In this document: one piece after another, positions 26,793 through 33,926 of the stretch
Layout of the letters: the number at the start of each line of letters is the position of its first letter
Numbering within the stretch: the first letter of the stretch is position 1
Source of the DNA: Maribacter sp. HTCC2170
GTDB taxonomy: Bacteria; Bacteroidota; Bacteroidia; Flavobacteriales; Flavobacteriaceae
Reading direction: 5' to 3'
DNA length: 64,000 nucleotides
Assembly (NCBI RefSeq): GCF_000153165.2
Contig: NC_014472.1
Coordinates: 3,096,001 to 3,160,000, forward strand
Translations under genes and position numbers: made by a program
The notes under the pieces: generated by a model
The model's database searches: none
Seen by the model: only the letters and a program-made list of their open reading frames with translations
Told to the model about the DNA's origin: nothing

Positions 26793-27455
26793 ATGACTAA
26801 AAAGGAAAAGGTTGTCTTCGCAATAAATAAACTACAGGAATTATATCCCACTATACCCGTTCCATTAAATCACAAAGACCCTTATACGCTACTAATAGCA
26901 GTACTAATGTCTGCCCAAAGTACAGATGTTAGAGTCAACAAAATAACACCTTTATTATTTGATAGGGCAGACAACCCCCATGATATGGTTAAATTAACTG
27001 TGGAGGAAATTCGTGAAATCATCAAACCGGTCGGACTTTCCCCTATGAAATCAAAAGGTATCCATGGTTTATCCCAAATCTTGATTGATAAGTATGACGG
27101 TAAGGTACCCAACGATATTGCCTTATTAGAAGAATTACCGGCTGTAGGGCACAAAACGGCTAGTGTAGTTGTTTCCCAAGCCTTTGGGACTCCGGCCTTC
27201 CCTGTTGATACACACATTCACAGATTAATGTACCGCTGGGGTTTCACGAATGGTAAAAATGTGGTTCAAACAGAAAAGGATGCAAAACGAATATTTCCTA
27301 AAGCAATATGGAATGACCTTCACTTACAGATAATCTGGTATGGTCGCGAATATTCTCCGGCAAGAGGATGGGACCTTGAAAAGGATGTTATTACAAAAAC
27401 AATCGGCAGAAAAACAGTGTTAAATAATTACTATAAATATAAAAAGACCCGTTAA
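26793..27455 (+). CDS. nth: Endonuclease III without the iron-sulfur cluster
   Basis: A 220-residue base-excision repair glycosylase/AP lyase. The helix-hairpin-helix LPAVGHKTASVV with catalytic Lys121 and the catalytic Asp139 in FPVDTHIHRL are intact. The C-terminus, where most Nth enzymes bind a [4Fe-4S] cluster through four cysteines, reads EYSPARGWDLEKDVITKTIG and has no cysteine. It may therefore be a clusterless Nth, a variant found in some Bacteroidota. Its last codons form one arm of the following hairpin. Confidence 0.92.
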   Translation: MTKKEKVVFAINKLQELYPTIPVPLNHKDPYTLLIAVLMSAQSTDVRVNKITPLLFDRADNPHDMVKLTVEEIREIIKPVGLSPMKSKGIHGLSQILIDKYDGKVPNDIALLEELPAVGHKTASVVVSQAFGTPAFPVDTHIHRLMYRWGFTNGKNVVQTEKDAKRIFPKAIWNDLHLQIIWYGREYSPARGWDLEKDVITKTIGRKTVLNNYYKYKKTR

Positions 27456-27465
27456 TTACGGGTCT
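27445..27465. terminator. Terminator shared by nth and the first small protein gene
   Basis: AGACCCGT (27445-27452) pairs with ACGGGTCT (27458-27465) around a five-base loop that contains the nth stop codon. A runs on one side and T-rich sequence on the other would serve transcripts arriving from either side. The stem is short (8 bp). Confidence 0.6.
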
Positions 27466-27470
27466 ATTTA

Positions 27471-27614
27471 TTAATTCAAGTTTATTTCGAACTGTAAGTT
27501 ATTTTGGTGAACAATACAGAAAGACTGGGAAAAACTAGTCAAAAACTGGATTGTTTCTCTGCAGGCCATCACTGGACTACTCTTTTTTTGATTCTCAAAG
27601 TAAATTTTTTCCAT
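27471..27614 (-). CDS. 47-residue protein after ECF sigma factor, copy 1
   Basis: An ATG-initiated frame of 48 codons starting 70 bases after the sigma factor gene and in the same direction. The product begins MEKIYFENQKK and ends LQFEINLN. It is collinear without gaps with the 47-residue product at 28650-28793: 19 identical positions, including MEK-x-Y, N8, K11, ET (20-21), FL (24-25), S29, S31, I34 and the FE-x-N-x-N end. Conservation in protein sequence, equal length and equal position make it likely to be a real gene. Cytoplasmic by lack of signal; function unknown. Confidence 0.72.
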   Translation of the reverse strand: MEKIYFENQKKSSPVMACRETIQFLTSFSQSFCIVHQNNLQFEINLN

Positions 27615-27684
27615 ATTGATTATAGTATTGTTATGCTAGAATAACGCAACTAAAATCAAAATATTGTTTTTGGTAAACTAAGTA

Positions 27685-28269
27685 CTATGAATTTGTAAGA
27701 ACTATGTTGTTTTTATCGATGATCTTTCTAAGGTTGATTAAAGCATACCTCATTCTTCCTAGAGCAGTGTTTATACTAACTCCCGTATTTTCAGAAATCT
27801 CCTTGAAGCTCATATCCTTGTAGATACGCATGAAAAGTACCTCTCTCTGGTCATCTGGTAATTCATCTATAAGATATCTTAAATCTGAATTGATCTGATC
27901 CTTGATTAATTGCTTTTCGGCATTAAGCTTATCATCCCCGATAACAGAAAAAATATTAAAGTCATCATTGCCTTCAAACATCGGCATTCTTTTGTTCTTT
28001 CTAAAATGGTCAATAATAAGATTATGTGCAATTCGCATTACCCAAGGTAAAAATTTACCTTCCTCACTATATGATCCTTTTTTTAAGGTCTTGATTACCT
28101 TGATGAAAGTATCTTGAAAAATATCTTCTGTGATATCCCTGTCCAATACTTTGGAATAAATAAAACTTGAAATACGTTGATTGTGTCTATTGATCAAAAC
28201 CTCTAGGGCTTTTTCATCTCCACTAATATAATCTCTTACTAATACTGAATCTTCTATTTGTAGTTCCAT
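27685..28269 (-). CDS. ECF-type RNA polymerase sigma factor, copy 1
   Basis: A 194-residue sigma-70 family factor with region 2 (about residues 20-92; DIFQDTFIKVIKTL and FLPWVMRIAHNLIIDHFRKN) and region 4 (about 130-182; helix-turn-helix MSFKEISENTGVSINTALGRMRYAL). No anti-sigma gene is seen beside it. It is about 82% identical to the factor at 28909-29490, with complete conservation over residues 71-90 and 151-180, so both probably read similar promoters. The 5' leader (CAAATTACTGTTTTTTTT then TTAGGGGC) also resembles that of the second copy. A 47-residue gene follows. Confidence 0.9.
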   Translation of the reverse strand: MELQIEDSVLVRDYISGDEKALEVLINRHNQRISSFIYSKVLDRDITEDIFQDTFIKVIKTLKKGSYSEEGKFLPWVMRIAHNLIIDHFRKNKRMPMFEGNDDFNIFSVIGDDKLNAEKQLIKDQINSDLRYLIDELPDDQREVLFMRIYKDMSFKEISENTGVSINTALGRMRYALINLRKIIDKNNIVLTNS

Positions 28270-28594
28270 ACAAATTACTGTTTTTTTTAAGATTAGGGGC
28301 TTTCTGGTTAAAGCTTAATTTTAGTTACTTGGTCTTACTTTGAGATCTTAACACGATTATTATAAAAACTGTGCTATTCTTTAATTATGACTTAAAACTA
28401 GATAAAAGGGGGTGTGTGGAAAAAACTATGTTGTCAAACCCTTGGATTTTGATGTGAAACAATCATTTTTGATTTTTATCACAATAATTTAGGATTATAG
28501 AAGTTGCACCGACCATTCACATCAATACCTAATATTCAACCTAATTGCACTATGTTTTAATCGAATAGTTGAAAATTGAATCGGGAAAGGGTAC
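28270..28594. other. Gap upstream of sigma copy 1
   Basis: About 325 AT-rich bases serving as leader and promoter region for the leftward sigma factor gene. I see the duplicated leader segment next to the gene but no coding frame of note and no strong hairpin. Confidence 0.5.
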
Positions 28595-28597
28595 AAA

Positions 28598-28629
28598 AAA
28601 ACCCTTGCTACTACAGTAACAAGGGTTTT
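28598..28629 (-). terminator. Terminator behind the second small protein gene
   Basis: AAAACCCTTG (28598-28607) pairs with CAAGGGTTTT (28620-28629), with an inner TAC/GTA pairing. Read leftward it ends in a run of seven Ts (A tract at 28595-28601). It separates the two sigma cassettes. Confidence 0.82.
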
Positions 28630-28649
28630 AGATTTATTCTTGGGAACTA

Positions 28650-28793
28650 TCAGTTCATATTGCTTTCGAACTTTATTCCTTTGACATCAGTTATGTTTAA
28701 AGACTTTGAATAGTTCAACAAAAAATCAACCGTTTCAGGTTTTGCCTTAACTACTTTACACTTATTTTTATTCTTAACGTAAAATTTTTCCAT
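28650..28793 (-). CDS. 47-residue protein after ECF sigma factor, copy 2
   Basis: A 48-codon frame starting 115 bases after the second sigma factor and in the same direction, ending just before a terminator. The product begins MEKFYVKNKNK, ends KFESNMN, is lysine-rich at the N-terminus, and aligns end to end with the product at 27471-27614 (40% identity, no gaps). The short N-terminal strand-like part and a helix-like middle (ETVDFLLNYSKSL) are the only structural hints. Its constant place after a sigma factor suggests a regulatory or anti-sigma-like role, which is inference. Confidence 0.74.
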   Translation of the reverse strand: MEKFYVKNKNKCKVVKAKPETVDFLLNYSKSLNITDVKGIKFESNMN

Positions 28794-28908
28794 ATCTATT
28801 TCAGTATTGTTTCATAAAGAAAACGCCACATCGATAAATATAGTAAATACGTTCGACCTAAAGCTAGATAATTCGTCAAAACTATTTGATGCTCGACCTA
28901 AGGTCCGA

Positions 28909-29490
28909 TTAGTTCGTTAAAACAATGTTATTCTCCTCAATGATCTTTCGCAGATTGATCAAGGCGTAACGCATACGCCCAAGAGCTGTATTTATACTAA
29001 CACCTGTATTTTCAGAAATTTCTTTGAAACTCATATCCTTATATATACGCATTACCAAAACATCTCTTTGGTCTGCTGGCAACTCCTCAATAAGTAAAAC
29101 CAAATCCTCATCTATTTGATTTTTGATAAGTTGTTTTTCAATATTCAATTTCTCATCACTAATAACTGAGAATATATTAAACGCACTAGTACCTTCGAAT
29201 AAGGGCATTCTACGGTTCTTTCTAAAATGATCTATAATAAGGTTATGCGCAATTCGCATTACCCAAGGTAAAAATTTACCTTCCTCATTGTATCTTCCCC
29301 TCTTAAGGGTTCTTATTACTTTGATAAAGGTATCTTGAAAAATATCTTCGGTAATCTCGCGATCGTTCACCTTAGAATAAATAAAACTACTAAGGCGTTG
29401 GTTATGTCTATTGATTAATATTTCAAGAGCTCTTTCGTCTCCTTGAATGTAGTTTTGTATAAGTAGGGAATCTGCTATCTGAAGCTCCAT
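28909..29490 (-). CDS. ECF-type RNA polymerase sigma factor, copy 2
   Basis: A 193-residue sigma factor with regions 2 and 4 as in copy 1. I start it at ATG 29490 (MELQIADSLL), which matches the start of copy 1 (MELQIEDSVL); the longer frame to 29526 has no counterpart. About 34 substitutions separate the two proteins, clustered at residues 11-20, 101-140 and the extreme C-terminus. The divergence indicates the duplication is not recent. Divergent from uvrA on the other side. Confidence 0.9.
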   Translation of the reverse strand: MELQIADSLLIQNYIQGDERALEILINRHNQRLSSFIYSKVNDREITEDIFQDTFIKVIRTLKRGRYNEEGKFLPWVMRIAHNLIIDHFRKNRRMPLFEGTSAFNIFSVISDEKLNIEKQLIKNQIDEDLVLLIEELPADQRDVLVMRIYKDMSFKEISENTGVSINTALGRMRYALINLRKIIEENNIVLTN

Positions 29491-29686
29491 ATCAATTACT
29501 TTTTTTGAGTTAAAACTAGGGGCCAATTCTACAGAAAAGGCCTTGTGGGTTATACACTAATTTTAAAAAAGTAATTGTTTACTATAGGCGTATTAACATT
29601 TTGTTGAGTTCAAATATAGAAAAAAATATAGGTTTTAGAAAAATAGTAACGTGATTATCATGAATTTAAAGTATAAAATAGCTTTG

Positions 29687-29718
29687 TTGGCAATTGCATT
29701 TCACATATTGTATCTTTG
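29687..29718 (+). promoter_or_regulatory. Promoter of uvrA
   Basis: TTGG at 29687-29690, a 20-base spacer, and TATCTTTG at 29711-29718 match the Bacteroidota promoter. This places transcription start shortly before ATG 29736, supporting that start over 29694. Confidence 0.6.
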
Positions 29719-29735
29719 CCCATCTAACAAAGAAT

Positions 29736-32516
29736 ATGCCTTCAATACTAGACGCAAATCCAAAGGAAAATATAATTATCAAAGGTGCTAAATTGCACAA
29801 TTTGAAAAATATTGATGTTGTTATACCTCGAAATAAATTGGTGGTCATAACGGGACTTTCAGGTTCAGGAAAATCTAGTTTGGCCTTCGACACTTTGTAC
29901 GCCGAAGGGCAACGTAGGTATGTAGAAAGTTTATCTTCTTATGCCAGGCAGTTCCTAGGAAAACTTAACAAGCCCAAAGTAGATTATATAAAGGGTATAG
30001 CTCCTGCGATTGCTATTGAGCAAAAAGTCAATTCCACAAACCCAAGGTCAACCGTTGGTACTACCACAGAAATATATGACTATCTAAAACTGCTATATGC
30101 CCGCATTGGTAGGACCATTTCCCCAAAATCGGGCGAAGAAGTCAAAAAAGATACCGTTACAGATGTTGTAAAACATATAAAAAGTTACGATGAAGGAGAA
30201 AAACTTCTATTACTTGCTCCGATTATAATCAAAGAAGGTAGAGACCCAATAAAGTCTTTACAGCTTTTTTCCAAACAAGGTTACGCAAGGATTAAACATA
30301 TTGATAAGGTTATTCGAATTGATGCTGCACCAAAAGACATAGGCCCTAAATTCAGTCTCGTCATCGATAGAATCATCACAAAAAATGATGAGGATTTTTA
30401 CAATAGATTGGCCAATGCAATTGATTCTGCTTTTTTTGAAGGAAAAGGGGAATGCGTAATCGAAGAACTTGCAACAAAAAGACAAACCATTTTCAATAAT
30501 AAGTTTGAAAAAGATGGAATGTCTTTTTTAGAACCCAATGTACATCTGTTCAGTTTTAATAATCCATATGGCGCATGTCCAAAATGCGAAGGTTATGGTG
30601 ATGTGATTGGGATAGACGAAGACCTTGTTGTTCCGAATACGGCACTGTCTATCTTTGAAAATGCCGTTTTTCCTTGGCGAGGTGAGAGCATGAGTTGGTA
30701 TCGCGACGAGTTGGTTAACTCCGCCTATAAATTTGATTTCCCCATTCACAAACCATGGTTTGAACTTACAGAAGAGCAAAGACAATTAGTTTGGGATGGT
30801 AATTCTCAGTTCACCGGACTTAACAAGTTTTTTGGAATGTTGGAGGAGAAGAGTTACAAAATCCAAAATAGGGTGATGCTTTCTCGTTATCGAGGCAAAA
30901 CCAAGTGTAATGTTTGTCGCGGTAAACGTCTCCGCAAAGAAACTGATTACGTTAAAGTAGATGACCATTCCATTTCAGATTTGGTTGAGTTACCAATTAA
31001 AAAGTTAGTGCTCTTCTTTAATGATCTTTCCTTGAACGAATATGATTCTCAAATCGCCTCACGATTATTAAAAGAAATCAATACAAGGTTAGGGTTCTTA
31101 GAAAAAGTTGGTCTCAACTACCTTACTCTAAATAGAAAATCAAATACGCTCTCAGGAGGCGAAAGTCAAAGAATAAACCTAGCAACCTCTTTAGGAAGTA
31201 GTCTTGTGGGTTCTATGTATATTTTGGATGAGCCAAGTATTGGCTTACACCCCAAGGACACCGAGAATTTAATCGATGTATTAAAATCACTTCGTGATTT
31301 GGGCAATACCGTCATTGTTGTGGAACATGATGAAGATATAATGAATGCAGCTGATGAAGTTATTGATATTGGACCTGAAGCCGGAACACATGGTGGTGAG
31401 GTTGTGGCTCACGGTACTTTGTCAGAAATTTTGAAATCTACATCATTAACCGCAGGTTATCTGAACGGAACGGAGAAAATTGTAATCCCTAAAGAGCGGC
31501 GAGTCTCTACAAATTACATTGAGATTAAAGGTGCTCGGGAAAACAACCTTAAAAATATAGATGTTACTTTCCCCCTTAATATGCTCACTGTTATCACAGG
31601 TGTCTCAGGAAGCGGCAAAAGTACGTTGGTCAAAAAATTGTTATACCCAGTAATTTTAAAAGAAGTTGGGGGTTATGGTGCAAAAGCAGGCCAGTTTACT
31701 TCTGTAGACGGAAAATATCAAACAATAAAACATGTTGAATTCGTAGATCAAAACCCTATAGGAAGATCATCCCGCTCAAACCCCGTGACTTATATCAAAG
31801 CCTACGATGATATTAGAGCTCTATTTGCTTCGCAAAAACTAAGTAAGATCAGAGCTTATCAGCCAAAACATTTTTCTTTTAATGTAGACGGTGGTCGCTG
31901 TGAAAAATGTAAAGGTGAGGGTGAAATTACGGTGGAGATGCAGTTCATGGCCGATGTACACCTTGAATGTGATACCTGCAGCGGTAAACGATTCAAAAAG
32001 GAAGTTCTTGAGGTAAAATTCGAAAATGCAAGTATTGATGATGTCCTGAATATGACTATTGATGATGCGATTGACTTTTTCGAAAAATATGGTCAAACCA
32101 AAATTGTAACCAAACTAACCCCCCTACGAGCTGTGGGATTGGGATACGTTACTTTAGGGCAATCTTCTTCTACCCTATCAGGTGGTGAAGCGCAACGTAT
32201 AAAGTTGGCTTCTTTTCTAGTCAAAGGAACTTCCAAAGATAAAGCCCTGTTTATTTTTGATGAACCAACAACTGGCTTACATTTTCATGATATCAAAAAA
32301 TTACTGAAATCTTTCGATGCCTTGATTTCACGCGGACATTCTGTTATAGTTATTGAGCATAATATTGAACTCATTAAATGTGCAGATCATATTATTGACC
32401 TTGGTCCAGAAGGTGGAGAAAATGGAGGGCAACTACTAGCCCAGGGTACTCCAGAAGAAATAATTCAAAGTAAAACTTCGTTTACGGCCAATTACCTTAG
32501 AGAAAAAATAATATAA
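29736..32516 (+). CDS. uvrA: Excinuclease ABC subunit A
   Basis: The damage-recognition ATPase of nucleotide excision repair, 926 residues. Two ABC modules are visible: Walker [11 protein letters not shown] (N-terminal) and [10 protein letters not shown] (C-terminal), signatures LSGGESQRI and LSGGEAQRI, and zinc-module cysteine pairs CPKC, CNVC, CEKC and CDTC. Length and order agree with UvrA of other bacteria. Start chosen at ATG 29736, downstream of the promoter box. Cytoplasmic; works with UvrB, which is not in the window. Confidence 0.97.
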
Positions 32517-32636: not shown

Positions 32637-33926
32637 ATGAGAAATATAGTACTCCTTTTTACAGCCCTCATTTTAGGTACCACGGGTATCATGGCTAGTA
32701 CAGTTGAAGATAAGGTTGCAATACGCAATGCTTATAGATACAATAACTCTTTCATTTTTGTTGAGAATGGCATTACGTTTTCAGTATATCCCGATGGAGA
32801 GTTTGACTTTTACATTGACAATCATGTTTCTGGACGTAGAAATGGTGTAACGTTCAATTCAGGATACGATTACAGTCCTTATGCACAATATGATGATTAT
32901 GGTGCAGTTATTCAAGTTGAGAACGTAGGTATTTATTATGACCATTATGGTCGTGTAACCCAAATTGGTGATGTAGATATTCGCTACAGAAACAATAGAG
33001 TTCATAGAATGGGTGGAATGTATGTTTACTACAACAATCGTGGATATTACGACTACCATTCAGGATACATTAATATTTATAACAGGCACTATGTATACAG
33101 ACCTTTCCATAGGCACTTTATACGACCAGCTTTTGGATTTAGCTTAGTATTCAACAGTCCTTATAGAAGGTACTATAACCCTTATAGATATACATATTAC
33201 AGACCTTACAGATATAATAAGCGTAGAGCTTATGCAAAAATCGGTAGAGAGCACAGATACAACAAAGTTCGAAGAGATAGAGCTTCGGTTTATAGAAATG
33301 ACAAACGTGTAGTTCAGCGCGAGAATAGAACCAGAAGGTATGACGGAACTCGCAGTAACAGAAGTGTTGCACGTAACAATGATTCATACAAATCTCACAG
33401 ATCTAATAATCGAAGAGGTGATGTTGTAAGAAACTCAGGAACACGTTCTAATCGTTCAAACGGAAAAGTTGCAGGAAGATCAGCTGTTGATAGATCGAAG
33501 AATATAGAGAGAAGATCAGTTCGCAAGAATGATGCTAGGTCATCTAACAACAGATCGGTAACAAAAAGATCCACAACTGTAAGATCTCCACAGCGAAGTG
33601 CTGTAAACAAGAGATCAACTACAGTTAGATCACCAAAACGAAATACGGTTACTAAAAGAACGGTAACCCAAACGCCTCGAAGTAGAACGGTAACTAGAAG
33701 TACAAAAACGTACAAAAAACCTGAAAACAGAACCCATAGCAGGAACGTACGTAGCAGTACTACTAGAACACAGAGGTCAGTTGCTAAAAGACCTTCAACG
33801 CGAAGTTCCAATAAAAGATCATCGGTTAGCAAGTCACCTTCTCGAAGCAGAAGTGTAGCAACAAGAAGTAACAGTAAAAGTCGCAGTTCTAGAGCTACAC
33901 AGTCAAGAAGCTCTAGAAGACAGTAA
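32637..33926 (+). CDS. Secreted protein with Tyr-rich domain and very basic Arg/Ser tail
   Basis: A 429-residue exported protein (signal peptide about 1-20). Residues 40-180 form a Tyr/Asp/Arg-rich region with repeating short strands (IRYRNNRVHRMGGMYVYYNNRGYYDYH). From about residue 190 to the end the sequence is dominated by Arg, Ser, Lys, Asn and Thr, including near-duplicate KRSTTVRSP units around residues 312 and 327, and would carry a large positive charge. I do not recognise the family. The tail might bind polyanions such as exopolysaccharide, teichoic-like polymers or DNA; this is inference. Confidence 0.82.
   Translation: MRNIVLLFTALILGTTGIMASTVEDKVAIRNAYRYNNSFIFVENGITFSVYPDGEFDFYIDNHVSGRRNGVTFNSGYDYSPYAQYDDYGAVIQVENVGIYYDHYGRVTQIGDVDIRYRNNRVHRMGGMYVYYNNRGYYDYHSGYINIYNRHYVYRPFHRHFIRPAFGFSLVFNSPYRRYYNPYRYTYYRPYRYNKRRAYAKIGREHRYNKVRRDRASVYRNDKRVVQRENRTRRYDGTRSNRSVARNNDSYKSHRSNNRRGDVVRNSGTRSNRSNGKVAGRSAVDRSKNIERRSVRKNDARSSNNRSVTKRSTTVRSPQRSAVNKRSTTVRSPKRNTVTKRTVTQTPRSRTVTRSTKTYKKPENRTHSRNVRSSTTRTQRSVAKRPSTRSSNKRSSVSKSPSRSRSVATRSNSKSRSSRATQSRSSRRQ

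Follow-up and report, generated by a model that had tools for sequence, protein, structure and literature searches.

What does a 47-residue protein of no recognized family do directly behind an ECF sigma factor gene, and is it a protein at all? The question is raised by a window of 64,000 nucleotides from the genome of Maribacter sp. HTCC2170, which carries two sigma factor genes in a row, each followed by a 144-bp frame (Table 1). The results presented here indicate that the frame belongs to an anti-sigma-like family which extends across the class and has a conserved ECF-type promoter, and that it is the most reduced member of this family; kinship of the family with anti-sigma domains is probable.

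Table 1. Positions of the sigma factor genes, the small genes and their neighbours in the window.
Feature	Position	Strand	Remarks
ECF sigma factor, uvrA-side copy	28909-29490	-	193 aa; ATG at 29490; Sigma70_r2 3e-16, Sigma70_r4_2 6.5e-11
ECF sigma factor, nth-side copy	27685-28269	-	194 aa; Sigma70_r2 4.3e-14, Sigma70_r4_2 2e-10
Small protein B, partner of uvrA-side sigma	28650-28793	-	47 aa; genus and family matches; AlphaFold2 model
Small protein A, partner of nth-side sigma	27471-27614	-	47 aa; 19/47 identical to B, ungapped; genus orthologues
Promoter-like element (ECF-type) 5' of small gene A	27641-27667	-	ACAATA, 15 nt, CGTTAT
Corresponding promoter-like element 5' of small gene B	28817-28841	-	GCGTTTT
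Intrinsic terminator behind small gene A	27445-27465	-	-12.7 kcal/mol, T run
Intrinsic terminator behind small gene B	28595-28628	-	hairpin of 13 bp at 28599-28628 (-17.3 kcal/mol, z -5.8), followed by a T run
uvrA	29694-32516	+	Flanks the sigma/small-gene units; named by similarity
nth	26793-27455	+	Flanks the sigma/small-gene units; named by similarity

Organization of the locus

Both sigma copies match Sigma70_r2, Sigma70_r4_2 and TIGR02937 above the cut-offs and so qualify as ECF sigma factors; the Pfam and NCBIfam searches listed no match for region 3 in either copy. Small proteins A and B match no family in Pfam-A or NCBIfam at E ≤ 1. The initial annotation had described two minus-strand sigma copies about 82% identical, two frames whose products align from end to end without a gap, and a terminator just behind each frame. 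This description was borne out: sigma identity was measured at 82%, the products have the same length and the reported number of identities, and a hairpin with a T run lies behind each frame. A terminator consensus scan listed only the one of small gene A, and that of small gene B was revealed by folding.

The arrangement had also been called a tandem duplication. Two copies are indeed present, but the duplication is old rather than recent. Two sigma copies occur in 36 of the 81 loci compared below, and the window sigma genes differ at about 90 of 113 synonymous sites. In the sigma tree they occupy different places within a group of 18 rows. Divergence is greater between the small partners (40% identity) than between the sigma copies (82%), which would fit insulated pairs.

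Evidence that the small frames are genes

A protein search within the genus gave small-protein matches in 11 of 12 genomes, with both copies in eight, which is beyond chance. A wider comparison used a near set of 81 loci, namely the window and the top 80 of 385 loci found in a scan with the sigma pair, drawn from Maribacter, Flagellimonas, Croceitalea, Cellulophaga, Eudoraea, Arenibacter and other genera. Within this selection a small frame follows on the same strand behind 115 of 117 sigma copies. The frame encodes 47 residues in 107 copies, 46 in three, 48 in three and 44 in one, and is cut by a contig end in one; it begins 65-82 nt behind the sigma gene in 102 copies and 104-115 nt behind it in the other 13. 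All 114 full-length proteins from the 81 loci, the cut frame being left out, end in asparagine. Other families of the order mostly end in KN, NN or LN. The two sigma copies without a small frame are the first copies of two Arenibacter loci (L086, 2629-3207; L104, 2667-3245), where the sigma frame is intact, a terminator-like repeat lies close behind it and the small frame has been lost.

Pooled dN/dS for the small gene was 0.066 among seven uvrA-side copies of the Maribacter group, 0.072 among six nth-side copies and 0.104 among 19 copies of the Flagellimonas group. The sigma gene gave 0.013 in the nth-side set and 0.016 in the Flagellimonas-group set, and was not computable in the Maribacter-group uvrA-side set. 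The three sets comprise 32 of the 115 copies, pairs of unequal length were omitted, and the figures are only approximate because synonymous change is high. Two results support the reading of the small frames as genes: of 117 orthologous sigma copies, 115 have the open frame behind them, and changes of amino acid are selected against. The earlier proposal that the frames are genes is upheld on both counts. Although expression data are lacking, it appears close to certain from comparison of genomes that the frames are genes and that they are paired with the sigma factor within the family.

Distribution and pairing with the sigma factor

A profile of 67 small proteins (E ≤ 0.01) found matches in 342 of 397 Flavobacteriaceae genomes, and in 300 of the 330 good genomes, while a sigma profile (E ≤ 1e-60) matched 374 of the same 397. 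Comparison of the lists placed the sigma factor in all 342 Flavobacteriaceae genomes with the small protein, and the small protein in none of the 23 genomes without the sigma factor. For the 32 genomes with the sigma factor only, a broader profile (E ≤ 1) gave matches in 22. In 19 of the 32 the sigma gene is directly followed by a diverged small frame whose core is P..xIxRIxAFSK or similar; the remaining broader-profile matches look like chance. Genes for class I anti-sigma factors are expected to adjoin an ECF sigma gene and to be conserved together with it, and the small gene fulfils both expectations (115/117 adjacent; 342/342 co-occurring).

Across the order, small-protein matches were obtained in 111 of 246 genomes, and the sigma gene directly precedes the small frame at 34 of the 39 order loci analysed. 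An order-wide profile matched 130 of 295 genomes of class Bacteroidia, the weakest perhaps by chance; 40 of these 130 matches were fetched, and a sigma gene lies upstream on the same strand in 25. The same arrangement was seen at 31 of 40 loci from a search with the long form of the partner described below, 27 of the 31 sigma genes belonging to this sigma group by score. Twenty-three class genomes have a partner without an adjacent sigma gene, and all but one of these hold the sigma factor elsewhere (E ≤ 1e-67). It lies on another contig in 18 of the 22, more than 0.7 Mb away in two, and at 2.6 and about 8 kb in the last two. The sole genome of the 23 without it is 80% complete. The 22/23 figure is uncontrolled, as the count did not include the frequency of the sigma factor in class genomes lacking the partner, and for some of the partners in this set the underlying match is weak (E up to 0.002). 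Two groups of loci have a long anti-sigma-like partner that adjoins nth without a sigma gene (f18, with L214, L217, L234, L260 and L261; f50, with L256, L259, L270 and L278); the sigma factor is located elsewhere in all but one of these genomes.

A size series of partners and its kinship

Within class Bacteroidia the partner genes behind the same sigma gene form a size series, with uvrA alongside in many cases. Partners of 173-194 aa with a segment that by eye resembles a membrane span occur in groups f17 and f54 (L240-L244), long soluble forms of 69-89 aa in many groups, mid-size forms of 54-68 aa in groups that include f6, f11 and f15 of the order, and short forms of 44-51 aa in the rest of the order. 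The 69-89-aa forms align nearly without gaps (A8, 34 rows): 'TxxDLIRYxYxE...' is followed by helix-like stretches, a 'P' and 'TIxxILxYSKS', and this last stretch is the core of the short form. Comparison of the short with the long profile by hhalign gave E 7.7e-10 at a probability of 96.5 (A5) and E 6.5e-7 (A4), each a single comparison.

The long forms provide the link to anti-sigma factors. The NCBIfam family NF052375, 'anti-sigma factor', was matched by eight of the 34 long forms (E ≤ 0.1, best 4.7e-4), a putative anti-sigmaE family by two and a third anti-sigma family by one, all under the curated cut-offs; the 11 other families listed were matched by one long-form member each (E ≤ 0.1). 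No Pfam anti-sigma domain matched any of the 34 at E ≤ 0.1. Across the class the long profile (E ≤ 0.001) matched 123 of 295 genomes, with second matches in four. Three of the four second matches lie directly behind other ECF sigma genes (L246, L247 and L248), one of them having a zf-HC2 domain (L247, 2.1e-7), and the fourth has no sigma gene within the fetched stretch. The alignment with E. coli RseA falls where it should, at residues 18-44, but is weak (E 0.032, probability 1.6%), and the PDB yielded no relative (best E 0.64 and 1.5).

Judged from these similarities, the window small protein is probably kin to anti-sigma domains. The initial annotation had inferred that the small protein could control the activity of the sigma factor and had stated that no anti-sigma gene lies nearby. 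The inference is now more specific, the protein being a short version within a family in which the longer members carry a part resembling an anti-sigma domain, but an inference it remains. The statement should be amended, as the small gene itself is most likely the anti-sigma gene.

It is an inference, too, that the series runs from long to short rather than by growth. The sigma tree was made by a quick method from 107 rows, four of them outgroup, keeping every seventh near-set row and all others; length labels were given by hand, and L275 (96 aa) was mislabelled 'mini'. Apart from this row, the mini forms share a single group of 54 rows (46 mini, 8 mid), which has weak support. Shrinkage is unproven, as the position of the root is uncertain and partners of intermediate length occur to either side of the root.

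A promoter-like element that accompanies the partner gene

Between the sigma gene and the small gene nothing is as constant as a CGTT box, the -10 box of the promoter-like element, which lies 20-52 nt ahead of the small ATG. It precedes the small gene in all 115 near copies (106 distinct stretches) and at all 39 order loci, which represent nine family groups (37 loci plus L180 and L182, added later), compared with 9% and 7% in shuffles. A -35-like A.TA lies 15-16 nt upstream of the box in 111 of the 115 near copies. The sigma ATG itself is preceded by CGTT in merely three of 115. Mid-size partner forms (20/22) and long forms (28/33) have the box as well (shuffles, 8-9%), and none of the five membrane-like forms, which lie directly behind the sigma gene, has the element. 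Of the 23 partner genes that are not beside the sigma gene, 20 have A.TA-N15/16-CGTT before them, versus 0.9% in shuffles; among 63 other open frames of 150 aa or more in the same loci, none has it. The partner keeps the element whether it is beside the sigma gene or away from it and therefore has its own ECF-type promoter class-wide, independent of place.

Searches of the window genome found no regulon from this element with strict or loose patterns, and a looser regulon is not excluded. The pattern ATATTTN{8,11}GCGTTWTNNT has two genome matches, both of them the window elements. ACAATAN{14,17}CGTTAT has five, against six in a reversed control; four of the five lie inside open frames of 197-734 aa, and the sole exception precedes small gene A. 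A loose pattern with up to three mismatches gave 15 genome matches versus 18 in the control, and the 14 non-window matches were uninspected. For Flavobacterium psychrophilum, the available part of a published report describes an ECF motif whose -10 box is CGT (PMC9723704). This sigma is the likeliest reader of the partner promoter, in the absence of promoter data.

Predicted structure and proposed mechanism

AlphaFold2 models small protein B, from 67 sequences, as a helix at residues 19-30 followed by strands at 32-37 and 40-45 (mean pLDDT 77, pTM 0.40). The window proteins lack the three-helix bundle by which class I anti-sigma domains are defined, with no AlphaFold2 helix before residue 19. 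In alignments the helix at 19-30 coincides with the final helical stretch of the long forms. Foldseek found no fold match for the model (best E 1.8). A coupling analysis of 199 sigma/partner pairs (effective number 87, too shallow) gave no excess in sigma2. A published survey of class I anti-sigma domains, as far as its accessible portion goes, reports that sigma4 is contacted by helices 1-3 and sigma2 by helix 4, and that 12 of the 14 strongest couplings lie between helix 4 and sigma regions 2.1/2.2, the regions that bind the RNA polymerase clamp (PMC7406223).

With moderate confidence, the small protein is seen as a minimal, soluble, anti-sigma-like partner made under the control of its own sigma factor, where binding, inhibition and the identity of the promoter reader are inferred. 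It would be a class I-type anti-sigma factor that has been shortened, with the three-helix bundle that holds sigma4 gone. Retained would be an N-terminal tail, a helix 'P..TIxFLLxYSKS' in the position of the fourth helix, which binds sigma2, and at the C-terminus a predicted beta-hairpin with asparagine as its last residue. Such a protein would bind sigma region 2.1/2.2 and compete there with the RNA polymerase clamp. Its own promoter (A.TA, 15-16 nt, CGTT) would most likely be read by the same sigma factor; if so, the active sigma factor makes its own brake, and the two genes form a negative feedback loop. Inhibition and the loop are the best-supported hypothesis, without expression, binding or promoter data.

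A bolder version can be put forward only tentatively. The sigma factor, kept throughout class Bacteroidia, may be governed by a partner that in the Flavobacteriales has shed the sigma4-binding bundle and any membrane anchor until a single sigma2-binding helix was left (44-51 residues), and the one invariant target promoter of the sigma factor may be that of its own brake, even when the two genes are apart. The two genes would then make up a core circuit that limits itself and that has escaped notice because anti-sigma domains of fewer than 50 residues are discarded in surveys.

Alternative explanations

That the frames are not genes, their conservation reflecting a regulatory RNA or chance, is refuted in the main and retains next to no credence. 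A promoter and a terminator would suit a small RNA as well, but not dN/dS values of 0.07-0.10 or an open frame of near-constant length in 115 copies, which rule out an RNA in place of the protein; the six Rfam matches obtained all fall below the gathering scores. The direction of the effect on the sigma factor is inferred. A small protein that binds the sigma factor and stabilizes or activates it, as one half of a feed-forward pair, would produce identical pairing and co-occurrence, and loss of the sigma4-binding bundle would remove a part that holds the sigma factor shut. The N-terminus of FecR, moreover, is essential for ECF activity according to what could be consulted of the survey (PMC7406223). 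Such a positive role is unlikely: the long relatives resemble ordinary anti-sigma domains, and two sigma copies persist without a small frame of their own.

It is also conceivable that the small protein has some other function, for example at RNA polymerase or as a stress effector, its gene being the main target of the sigma factor and often adjacent to it. The ECF-type promoter is the most constant feature, also away from the sigma gene (20/23), and every other match of the strict element in the window genome falls inside a long open frame. Only a slight chance is given to this explanation, against which it counts that the helix region resembles the C-terminal portion of the long, anti-sigma-like partners encoded behind the same sigma gene. 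Finally, recognition of the element rests on no experiment, and a different ECF sigma factor could read the promoter, the small protein then relaying the signal of another pathway to this sigma factor. Flavobacterium psychrophilum has seven ECF factors, and the CGT-box motif may serve several of them, to judge from the part of that report at hand (PMC9723704). This is improbable, given that the element accompanies the partner class-wide, near the sigma gene or away from it, and that nearly all such genomes hold this sigma factor.

Relation to known systems

A minimal anti-sigma-like partner, the reading preferred here, can be set beside several known systems. Class I anti-sigma factors of the RseA, ChrR, RsiW and RskA type (ASDI) are likewise encoded behind an ECF sigma gene, and the long relatives show by eye, without a predicted structure, the class I order of helical stretches followed by a separate C-terminal helix. 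The window form differs from them in having neither a helix bundle nor a membrane span. CnrY, of class II, is part of a metal-sensing membrane system, unlike the window protein. The sigma-binding part of CnrY is likewise very short, with two helices that touch sigma4 and sigma2 of CnrH, in the portion of the survey available (PMC7406223). CfrX of Pseudomonas aeruginosa, a putative soluble anti-sigma factor of SigX (ECF102), is a small soluble protein tied to an ECF sigma factor as well, as stated in the accessible text (PMC8999054), but is part of a proposed mechanosensing complex. According to the excerpts available, Reo and Dma of Bacteroides and Phocaeicola are also anti-sigma partners of ECF factors in Bacteroidia (PMC13114119, PMC13088901), but they reach from the cytoplasm as far as the outer membrane or the surface; Das1, the partner of Dma1, belongs to group ECF21. 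EcfO/Reo was considered as the same system and rejected on its published description, in so far as this was available (PMC13114119).

No published account of the small protein was found among titles and the beginnings of abstracts; subscription journals were thinly covered, and absence is unproven. Domains under 50 aa were discarded in the published survey, and at 47 aa the window form is below this limit; the same source, of which a part was available, states that in Bacteroidetes no more than about 6% of the ECF sigma factors had an anti-sigma domain found near them, compared with 32% overall, and suspects other modes of control (PMC7406223). If the proposed mechanism is true, the tiny partner of a sigma factor present in 374 of 397 Flavobacteriaceae genomes would explain part of this gap and would reveal how far an anti-sigma factor can be reduced. 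The predicted promoter is directly testable.

Other features of the locus

A palindrome, GTTWN..NWAAC, lies between the sigma gene and the small gene in 83 of the 106 distinct upstream stretches, versus 2% in shuffles. The window example (27629-27658, minus strand) overlaps the CGTT box, and its RNA folds no better than shuffles (z -0.86). The palindrome may be the site of a regulator.

The leader of the uvrA-side sigma gene contains a long inverted repeat with arms at 29493-29512 and 29558-29577 (minus strand), one arm lying a few nucleotides before the ATG. The repeat folds well (-22.3 kcal/mol, z -4.3), and both arms are almost invariant in 53 aligned leaders chosen by the authors; the 5' arm is absent, by eye, before nth-side copies. 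It is undecided whether the repeat is an RNA structure or a promoter with an A-rich start site.

Elsewhere in the window, a frame of 429 aa (32637-33926, plus strand) encodes a protein that by eye looks secreted and has a long, low-complexity C-terminal half rich in arginine and serine.
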